A DNA stretch of 60,543 nt from a bacterium (GTDB lineage: Bacteria; Desulfobacterota; Deferrisomatia; Deferrisomatales; Deferrisomataceae): contig JALUTY010000022.1 in assembly GCA_027021615.1 (NCBI GenBank), positions 1-60,543 on the forward strand, written 5' to 3'. The notes below the pieces were generated by a model, which worked only from the letters and a program-made list of their open reading frames with translations, did no database searches and was not told the DNA's origin. The position numbers and the translations under genes are program-made. Shown piece by piece: positions 6,861-53,032 of this stretch (positions within the stretch are counted from its first letter, which is position 1; every line of letters starts with the position of its first letter).

Positions 6861-6890
6861 CGATGGACGGACTCCCGGCCGCCTCATAGC

Positions 6891-7165
6891 AAGTTGCGTT
6901 CAAAGCCATCAGACCTCTGAACCGGCGGGGCAAGGGGCCTGGTGGAGCGCCGGGCGTGGCTCCTACAGTCGCTGCACCCGGCACTCAGCCGATGTTTGCC
7001 TCGCGACAATCCCGAACATGCCTTGTCAACGTTCGCTTTTCCAGCGCCCAAGGAGCATAGGGCTGAGTGCCGGGTGCGGCGTAAGTCGGATGCTGCACTC
7101 ACGCACGGCCGGAACCAGGCCCCTTGCCCCGGCCCCCCGGATGGATCTTGGTTTGAACGCAACTT
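6891..7165. repeat. Dispersed hairpin element, copy 1
   Basis: Outer arms AAGTTGCGTTCAAA (6891-6904) and TTTGAACGCAACTT (7152-7165) are perfect complements. Inside, GGGGCAAGGGGCCTGGT (6927-6943) pairs with ACCAGGCCCCTTGCCCC (7114-7130). An asymmetric loop of GGAGC (6944-6948) and CGGA (7110-7113) follows. Then comes a 10 bp helix with one mismatch, 6949-6958 with 7100-7109. A further 17 bp inner stem pairs 6974-6990 with 7061-7077. The element fills the gap between two convergent genes. No protein is encoded in it. Copies at 27615-27801 and 50210-50400 keep the loop but change both arms together. Confidence 0.85.
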
Positions 7166-7169
7166 GGTA

Positions 7170-8135
7170 TCACTCCGGCGGCCGGCCCGGGAACGGCCAC
7201 GGCACCGGAACGGGCCGGGGCAGGACCGGTCGCACGTCGATGCCCCTGCCCACACGGCGCTCCCGCCCGTCCCGCGAGGCCTCCACCACCTGGTCGGCCG
7301 AAAGCCCGCCCCAGTAGTTTTCGGGAAACCGAAGGCCCTGATCCTGCTCCCAGCCGAGCTTCACCGGCACCCGGTTGGCCCGCAGGTTGTTGGAGCGGAA
7401 CACGGTGCCGCCGCCGCACCGGGTCACCGCGAAGATGCCCACCTCGTTGTCCGAGATCTCGTTGCCCTCCACCCGGGCCGGGTGACCCCGCTCCTCGAAC
7501 CGGATCCCGTGGATGTTGTGGTGGATCCACGACCCCTCCAGGGTGAGGTCGGCCGTGGAGAACCGCACACCGTCCACGTTGTCGGCGAACTCGCACCGCC
7601 GGATGGCTGCGGGGCTGTAGTGGACCTGGATGCCGCTGAAGGCGTGCCGAACCCGCACGAACTCCAGCTCCGCGCCCGACGCGAAGTTGACCATCAGGTA
7701 CTTCCAGTCCCCGGGGCGGGGCTCGGGCTCGGCCGAGGCCAGATCGATGGGCCGCTTCGCCGTGCCCCGCGCGGTGAGCCGACCCTCCACCGTGATCTCG
7801 GCGTCGCCGATGCCGTCTCCGTCCCAGTCGACCCGCCGGAACCGCACCCGGGTGCCGGGCGCGATCACCAGCTCCCCGCTCGAGCGCACCACCACGATCC
7901 GGTCGAGCACCACCTCGCCGCTCCACTCGGTGCGGCCCGTGATCGACTCGGTGGGCATGGCGTGGAGGTCGGTGGGGGGCACACCGGGCCCCGGCGTTCG
8001 GCATCCGGCGAGGAACATCAACAGGACGAGATGGGTGACGAGTGACGGGGTTTCCGCTGCCCAGCCGCCCAGCAGCCTAGCGTCCCCGCCTTCCAGCCTC
8101 CCAGCCTCCCAGCCTCCCAGCCGATTAGCCCCCAT
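7170..8135 (-). CDS. Beta-helix lipoprotein-like protein
   Basis: The open frame of 321 residues ends in a beta-helix-like region (about 90-270), with turns such as LEGSWIHHNIHGIRFEER and VEGNEISDNEVGIF. A DWDGDGIGDAEI segment resembles calcium-binding loops. A hydrophobic stretch ending MFLAGC (about residues 36-45) looks like a lipoprotein signal. The true start is uncertain: the ATG at 8135 overlaps the end of the upstream gene by 11 nt but reads through GGCTGGGA repeats (WEAGRL) before the signal, and I see no clean ATG or GTG nearer to it. It is last in the leftward operon from 15.4 kb and paralogous in fold to the 130-1623 product. Confidence 0.7.
   Translation of the reverse strand: MGANRLGGWEAGRLEGGDARLLGGWAAETPSLVTHLVLLMFLAGCRTPGPGVPPTDLHAMPTESITGRTEWSGEVVLDRIVVVRSSGELVIAPGTRVRFRRVDWDGDGIGDAEITVEGRLTARGTAKRPIDLASAEPEPRPGDWKYLMVNFASGAELEFVRVRHAFSGIQVHYSPAAIRRCEFADNVDGVRFSTADLTLEGSWIHHNIHGIRFEERGHPARVEGNEISDNEVGIFAVTRCGGGTVFRSNNLRANRVPVKLGWEQDQGLRFPENYWGGLSADQVVEASRDGRERRVGRGIDVRPVLPRPVPVPWPFPGRPPE
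8056..8122. repeat. GGCTGGGA octamer array
   Basis: About four units of CCCAGCCT (8091-8122) are preceded by degenerate units. The array lies inside the 5' part of the downstream beta-helix frame. The unit is 8 nt, so a change in copy number would shift the frame. Confidence 0.85.
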
Positions 8136-27614: not shown

Positions 27615-27801
27615 GGGGCATGGGGCCTGCTGGAGAGCCGCGTGCGGCCCCTTGGCTCGCCGCGCAGCGCCTCTGACGCTCGGACCACGAAAGGGTTTGG
27701 ATTCCACCGAGTTGTCATGAAGCCAGATCTTCGGTCCCGTGCCTGCGCGGCGAATCTCGATGCCCGGCTTCGCGCGCGGCCGGAAGCAGGCCCCATGCCC
27801 C
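27615..27801. repeat. Dispersed hairpin element, copy 2
   Basis: GGGGCATGGGGCCTGCT (27615-27631) pairs perfectly with AGCAGGCCCCATGCCCC (27785-27801). The loop of GGAGA (27632-27636) and CGGA (27781-27784) follows. Then a 9 bp helix pairs 27637-27645 with 27772-27780, and an inner stem CGCCGCGCAG pairs 27658-27667 with 27743-27752. It fills the gap between the convergent lysR and tatC genes. It has no coding potential that I would accept. Confidence 0.85.
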
Positions 27802-44923: not shown

Positions 44924-44931
44924 ATTGGGTC

Positions 44932-44961
44932 GCGCGCGGCCGGAAGCAGACCCCATGCCCC
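44932..44961. repeat. Dispersed hairpin element, half copy 4
   Basis: Only the right half is present: GCGCGCGGC (44932-44940), the CGGA loop (44941-44944) and AGCAGACCCCATGCCCC (44945-44961). This is 16 of 17 identical to the arm of copy 2. No matching left arm is found upstream. Confidence 0.75.
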
Positions 44962-50123: not shown

Positions 50124-50159
50124 CCCCCGGATGGATCTCGGCTCGACCCCAACTTGGTA
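50124..50159. repeat. Outer flank shared with hairpin copy 1
   Basis: The sequence CCCCCGGATGGATCTCGG up to CCAACTTGGTA matches, with few changes, the right outer flank of copy 1 (7133-7169). Here it stands left of copy 3, as if it were the tail of a decayed neighbouring copy. Confidence 0.65.
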
Positions 50160-50209
50160 CTAATACCAACGGAACTATTGTCAGATCCCCGGCGTTCACA
50201 AGGGAACCA

Positions 50210-50400
50210 GCGGGTGGGGGGCTGGTGGAGAGCCGGGCGCGGCCCCTTACGTCGCCGCGCCCTCACCCGGCCTAGATCGCCCTGTAAGTTCAGGAACTTC
50301 CGCCACCAGAGCCCCGGCCTACCGGGCTGACGACGGCATGCGAAGGCGCGGCGAAGGGGGTGCCGCACTCGCGCCCGGCCGGAACCAGTCCCCCACCCGC
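50210..50400. repeat. Dispersed hairpin element, copy 3
   Basis: GCGGGTGGGGGGCTGGT (50210-50226) pairs with ACCAGTCCCCCACCCGC (50384-50400), with one G-T pair. The GGAGA (50227-50231) and CGGA (50380-50383) loop follows. GCCGGGCGC (50232-50240) pairs with GCGCCCGGC (50371-50379), and CGCCGCGCC (50253-50261) with GGCGCGGCG (50345-50353). It lies between the purA stop and the tRNA promoter. Confidence 0.85.
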
Positions 50401-50429
50401 GTCCGGCAATACCTTCGTAGGCCTTAGTA

Positions 50430-53032
<2,603 letters not shown>

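Follow-up and report, generated by a model that had tools for sequence, protein, structure and literature searches.

The window analysed here, a stretch of 60,543 nucleotides of bacterial DNA, contains three copies of a long hairpin and one solo arm (Table 1). All three copies follow a common plan, in which a G-rich helix of 17 bp leads to an asymmetric loop with GGAGA or GGAGC on one side and CGGA on the other, followed by an inner helix of 10 bp and an inner stem. Direct reading of the window sequence gave GGGGCAAGGGGCCTGGT-GGAGC ... CGGA-ACCAGGCCCCTTGCCCC for copy 1, GGGGCATGGGGCCTGCT-GGAGA ... CGGA-AGCAGGCCCCATGCCCC for copy 2 and GCGGGTGGGGGGCTGGT-GGAGA ... CGGA-ACCAGTCCCCCACCCGC for copy 3. 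The shared layout described in a first-pass annotation of this DNA is therefore exact, and the arm changes that it reported as matched on both sides are true two-sided changes in the three window copies. The half copy that it mentioned is real as well and matches core type c2 by BLAST. Copy 1 folds with -127.7 kcal/mol (z -8.1 against dinucleotide shuffles), and a left-arm motif of 37 nt occurs three times in the window and not once in 100 shuffles.

Table 1. Hairpin elements of the window, their parts and their flanks (positions are those of the window).
Feature	Position	Strand	Basis and remarks
Left TCA target-site duplication of copy 1	6884..6886	.	same TCA at 7170-7172
Copy 1, whole element, coat A, core type c1, 283 bp, TIRs TAGCAAGTTGCGTTCAAA / TACCAAGTTGCGTTCAAA	6887..7169	+	TIR scan; size class 281-285 bp
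Copy 1, G-rich helix, left arm	6927..6943	+	sequence and fold
Copy 1, asymmetric loop, left side GGAGC	6944..6948	+	GGAG kept in nearly all of at least 195 copies
Copy 1, loop, right side CGGA	7110..7113	+	sequence; family alignment
Copy 1, G-rich helix, right arm	7114..7130	+	sequence and fold
Right TCA duplication of copy 1, equal to the stop codon (TGA, minus strand) of the convergent gene 7170-8135	7170..7172	.	
Copy 2, core type c2, coat degenerate	27615..27801	+	helix 27615-27631 / 27785-27801; loop 27632-27636 / 27781-27784
Solo right arm, degraded core	44930..44961	+	BLAST match to c2 positions 158-189
Older coat-A element, remnant right end, CCCCAACTTGGTA, then C	50124..50159	-	A_R and A_TIR matches
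Left TA target dinucleotide of copy 3	50158..50159	.	sequence
Copy 3, whole element, coat C, core type c3, 268 bp, TIRs CTAATACCAACGGAACTATTGTCAGA / CTAAGGCCTACGAAGGTATTGCCGGA	50160..50427	+	TIR type is that of an IS630-family IS in G002
Copy 3, core hairpin	50210..50400	+	helix 50210-50226 / 50384-50400; loop 50227-50231 / 50380-50383
Right TA target dinucleotide of copy 3	50428..50429	.	sequence

The full element is larger and contains the hairpin only as its middle part. Beyond the G-rich helix the hairpin is enclosed by a 'coat' with its own TIRs, and several kinds of coat were found. The extents first given for copies 1 and 3 (6927-7130 and 50210-50400) are correct for the core hairpin but too short for the full element, which reaches further on both sides (Table 1). 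The TIR scan and the sequence place the insertion point of copy 3 at the terminal TA of the older coat-A remnant. Copies 1 and 2 are each flanked by convergent genes, as had been noted before, and copy 2 is also present at the orthologous locus of a sister species with a complete genome (G002).

Copy 1 has at least 71 relatives among the matches in its own genome, and the loci of that genome contain at least 109 full copies of the core types c1, c2 and c3 together, which were named after window copies 1, 2 and 3. Six contigs of this assembly (C3, C37, C46, C81, C87 and C102 of G000) terminate inside c3 copies, which indicates that the assembly breaks at the hairpins and that the copy number is underestimated. 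The plus-strand orientation reported for the window copies holds within the window but not genome-wide, as c2 was found 22 times on the plus and 22 times on the minus strand in the own-genome loci listed. The element also occurs in two species of the same genus (G001 and G002) and in one species of the same family (G003), giving at least 195 non-identical full copies across the four genomes. The other genomes among 39 relatives gave a marginal short match at most, and none of 395 genomes of the phylum outside the bacterial family of this organism matched at 1e-6. An exact-pattern scan of 84,980 species genomes gave at least two Deferrisomatales-type MAGs among the matches listed; the range of the element is better judged from the sample of 395 genomes.

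Several properties identify the element as mobile. It is short (268-283 bp), lacks a transposase gene, is present in more than 100 copies and has TIRs at each end. Coat-A elements are flanked by identical triplets in 35 of 53 cases (34 TNA and one TTT), against 13.9 expected from composition and 1-4 in offset controls. TA is found at both flanks of 9 of 15 coat-B elements and of 17 of 20 coat-C elements, with offset controls within 0-4 for both coats. TA is frequent at both ends of coats B and C and the composition null is high, so that empty sites are the better evidence for these coats. Comparison with G002 revealed such sites. At L101, CCCAAA[272 bp]TAGCTACGG stands against CCCAAATAGCCACGG, with TA duplicated; at L027, GGGCGT[270 bp]TACTTCC stands against GGGCGTTACTTCC; and at L016, 275 bp are inserted. 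Comparison of orthologous loci also showed that single copies were lost, deleted or inserted between the sister species. The G002 ortholog of copy 1 (L111:1141-2613, on contig C1) is split by an IS4-family IS, which encodes a 399-aa transposase (NF033592), shows an apparent 10-bp duplication, GACTTACGCC, and has seven equal-scoring matches in G002.

The coat-A TNA duplications frequently fall on the stop codon of an adjacent gene, as in the window at 7170-7172 and 50430-50432, with a beta-helix gene and a purA-like gene as neighbours. Where this is the case, the insertion restores the stop codon. Targeting of stop codons by coat A was considered and rejected, since coat A ends exactly on a stop codon in 39 of 93 cases, which equals the 41% expected if all TNA outside genes were hit equally.

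The ends of two coats could be traced to transposons. A DDE_3 search for IS630 transposases gave seven matches in G002 and none in the assembly that contains the window, so that mobility of the element in its own genome may have ended. One IS of G002, of 1104 bp and flanked by TA, has the ends CTAATACCTACAAAAGTATTGCC / CTAAGACCTTCAAAAGTATTGCCGGA, which are those of coat C, including the difference between its left and right ends. Another, of 1107 bp and likewise flanked by TA, has the ends TTAACCCGGCGATTAAATAGGCGCG / TTAACCCGGTGGCTAAATAGGCGCG, which are those of coat B. The match with the coats covers roughly 25 bp at each end; inside the TIRs the 1104- and 1107-bp ISs have nothing obvious in common with the hairpin element. 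The proteins of both IS types are IS630-family transposases (NF033545, E 2e-83 and 4e-73; PF13358). TIRs equal to those of an autonomous IS630 element, together with a TA target, were thus found for coats B and C only, with the ISs coming from G002. Coat A, which encloses copy 1, is flanked by a TNA instead of a TA duplication, and no IS with coat-A TIRs was found. A search for its transposase gave no candidate, as PF13340 and PF13586 were absent and the PF01609 loci lacked coat-A TIRs. TIR pairs 0.9-3 kb apart in G002 were considered as an autonomous coat-A element but proved to be adjoining MITEs. By analogy with the behaviour proposed for MITEs such as RUP, coats B and C would be recognized in trans by the two IS630-family transposases of G002 and inserted at TA, and coat A would be inserted at TNA by a further transposase.

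The target-site duplications, the empty sites and the TIRs shared with IS630-family transposons bear out the mobile hairpin element that was among the options of the first-pass annotation. The repeated hairpin is very probably a modular MITE-like element, with a core that sits in TIR coats of different origin and is moved by the transposases of other elements, and with a covariation that is largely a by-product. As a MITE the family is of a known kind; what is unusual is that it is modular across transposon systems and that it covaries without selection in resident copies.

The closest known system is RUP of Streptococcus pneumoniae, an intergenic, high-copy MITE of IS630-Spn1 with TIRs that match an IS630-family IS and with a TA target, and for which transcripts with long hairpins are expected (PMC2229807, PMC3049150). 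RUP is AT-rich, 107 bp long and a single simple unit with one set of ends, whereas the hairpin family is GC-rich, about 270 bp long and modular, one core being combined with the ends of two or more IS630 elements and of a third system. Correia/NEMIS, ERIC and similar bacterial MITEs are also TIR elements of 100-200 bp with high copy number, mostly 5'-TA ends and stable stem-loop transcripts, but one core common to several TIR systems is not described for them in the part of the source that covers them, and no sequence relation to the hairpin family was seen (PMC2229807). BOX elements of pneumococcus are likewise modular MITEs with shared and variable blocks; the blocks of BOX are boxA, boxB and boxC, with boxB in a tandem array, whereas the hairpin family consists of nested palindromic shells (PMC3049150).

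The core is a palindrome of 190-205 bp nested in the TIR coats, and the matrix of coats and cores shows that the two are combined in many ways. Core c1 was found in coats A, B, B2 and D, c2 in coats A2, B and E, and c3 in coats C, C2 and F/E. Hybrids in which the left coat differs from the right coat are common, and in further copies, L023 and L112 among them, the orientation of the core is opposite to that of the coat. Forms of only 67-114 bp also exist; as most of them have one G-rich arm left, they look like internal deletions. Deletions in place were seen directly between two species (L016 and L214, L018 and L135, L031 and L208), with breakpoints at short direct repeats. The arms form a long inverted repeat, at which template switching during replication or recombination between arms could copy one arm onto the other, flip the core or delete sequence across the hairpin; joining or copying of arms would also let one core switch coats. 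From the hybrids, we infer that coats changed by such copying of arms or by recombination that joined halves of elements.

More tentatively, and with the odds somewhat against it, the palindromic core could have switched its transposase allegiance repeatedly, gaining, through arm copying or recombination at its own inverted repeats, ends from three or more transposon systems (two IS630 elements and one with a TNA target), with GGAG/CGGA kept for a role in propagation such as binding of a shared host or transposition factor. If true, the core would be a selfish hairpin that persists after its transposases are gone. One MITE core with the ends of several transposons implies that the extinction of a parent IS need not be the end of its MITEs. 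Two minor observations concern the joints between modules. The sequence TATAAGGGCCCCAATGGTTAACTTTGTTATCTCGGTAGGGCGTGG lies between core and coat on opposite arms at L017:3310-3370 and L022:3050-3092, possibly as another small insertion or through a rearrangement that joined both loci. Low-complexity sequence of the type TTCAGGAGCCAGAATTCAGGGGACAG is joined to truncated cores in L132, L206 and L214 and recurs at several loci.

Within the core, the block GGAG-N-GCCG ... CGGC-CGGA is nearly invariant while the outer helix varies freely. The statement that the loop is almost constant thus extends from the window to the family (Table 1). A purely end-driven MITE does not explain the low variation of the loop and the first inner pairs. 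An old insertion may have left the block as its target duplication, with GGA on each side; the block may also be a protein site, or both. A K-turn was considered for the GGAGA/CGGA loop and rejected, because c1 has GGAGC and misses the second G.A pair. Another explanation of the block and of the many coats is that the core is a separate transposon, repeatedly inserted at the apex of different palindromic MITEs, with GGA...GGA as its own target duplication. One core does occur in several coats with the boundary always where the G-rich arm starts, the GGA direct repeat bounds the inner hairpin, and elements of 112-114 bp with a single GGA exist (L125, L131). Against this, the inner hairpin was never found outside the G-rich helix (0 copies), so that it was rejected as an independent transposon. 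The short coat forms mostly retain one G-rich arm and resemble deletions, and a coat with an intact empty target opposite a full copy at an orthologous locus was not found except via deletion. We consider this explanation unlikely.

It also seems quite improbable that the modular mobile element serves as a bidirectional transcription terminator or 3'-end stabilizer that is kept between convergent genes. The placement of copies 1 and 2 and the very stable hairpins would fit such a function, and a strong terminator had been listed among the possible identities. Terminator function is not supported, because a T-run following the 3' arm is missing in all three window copies. Moreover, copies are missing at orthologous sites of G002, and a TNA target combined with avoidance of genes already predicts copies at gene ends, as the stop-codon count given above shows.

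Covariation of helix arms is commonly taken as near proof of a functional RNA, and it is strong in this family. The alignment comprised 165 alignable copies and 27 pairs (4455 cells), of which 94.6% were paired, against 84.1% (sd 0.3) in column shuffles and 41-61% when the helix was slid by 1-3 columns. Double-change cells numbered 478, against 157 (sd 14) in the shuffles, and two-sided changes occurred in 17 of the 27 pairs. Within subfamilies there were 25 complementary double-change states and 4 broken ones, and among double changes private to one copy 14 were complementary and 4 broken. Several of the double changes have no route through G.U (A-T to T-A, G-C to C-G, G-C to T-A). Counting all states within subfamilies, G.U products slightly exceeded A.C products (44 and 26, p 0.04), a hint of constraint on one strand; among singletons (27 and 18) the difference was not significant.

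A different picture emerged from copies that stayed in place. In ten cleanly aligned loci orthologous between the two species, 43 of 1812 paired bases had changed (2.4%), and the flanks had changed at much the same rate (about 2.3%). The ten loci contained no compensatory double change, and G.U and A.C products were about equal (11 and 13); a second comparison of resident copies gave a concordant result. Drift at the rate of the flanks without compensation is not the behaviour expected of a selected host RNA. At one locus an event of another type could be observed. L010 of the own genome and L106 of G002 share about 99% identity in the flanks and have coats and G-rich arms with few or no differences, but the core interior is inverted in place, with 169 of 170 bases matching once it is flipped. 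Inversion of a spacer together with homogenization of the arms is the signature of template switching at inverted repeats (PMC8604942), and the histories of RNA genes contain compensatory changes that are consistent with template switching (PMC8794818). Both the homogenized arms and inverted spacers of the former study and the compensatory stem changes of the latter resemble what is seen here; the published cases concern short repeats in yeast coding genes and RNA genes, and the present one a dispersed mobile family with a spacer of about 170 bp. Recombination between the arms could also produce the core inversion.

Since template switching yields the same pattern, covariation is not diagnostic of a structured RNA, and since inversion of the core and matching of the arms create covariation without selection, selection on structure is not shown. 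The reading of the matched arms as a signature of such selection is accordingly not supported, given the resident copies without compensation and the events of template-switch type. We consider it probable that copying between arms, together with the need of a TIR element for matching arms, is the main cause of the covariation, which would then mostly be a by-product of arm homogenization. The family also offers a natural test set to separate selection on RNA from mutation at inverted repeats.

The reading that this leaves very little room for is that of a functional structured RNA, acting in cis or in trans, with helices that covary under selection, a loop that binds a protein or ligand and only secondary mobility. 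We regard it as very unlikely. Strong pairing, the two-sided changes, the high conservation of the GGAG/CGGA loop and the inner GCCG/CGGC pairs in all subfamilies and the slightly higher number of G.U than of A.C states inside subfamilies are what it would predict. It conflicts with the flank-rate divergence of resident copies, which show no compensation and similar numbers of G.U and A.C products, with the loss, deletion and insertion of copies between sister species, one ortholog being split by the IS4-family IS, and with the equal use of both strands by c2. An Rfam match is also lacking: the scan of the window gave tRNAs only, in agreement with the first-pass statement that no RNA family was recognized.

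A REPIN/BIME-like element moved by a RAYT (REP-associated tyrosine transposase), with GGAG as foot tetranucleotide, is already contradicted and can hardly be correct. GGAG does stand before a hairpin, the genome has three Y1_Tnp matches, and a c3 copy lies downstream of one of them at a distance of about 58 bp, but that copy (L118) is a coat-C element at TA inside a coat-A remnant, so that nested insertion explains its position, and the remaining two Y1_Tnp loci have no full copy. Furthermore, the family has DDE-type TIRs and duplications of TA and TNA, and the sequence of the right end, taken on its own strand, is TCCG, which means that the two ends are not inverted REPs with a foot tetranucleotide. 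The gene beside the c3 copy (L118:745-1830) encodes a Y1_Tnp protein with a C-terminal DnaA-like domain (PF08299) and a weak REP_Tyr_transpos match, and we judge its proximity to the hairpin to be coincidental nesting.
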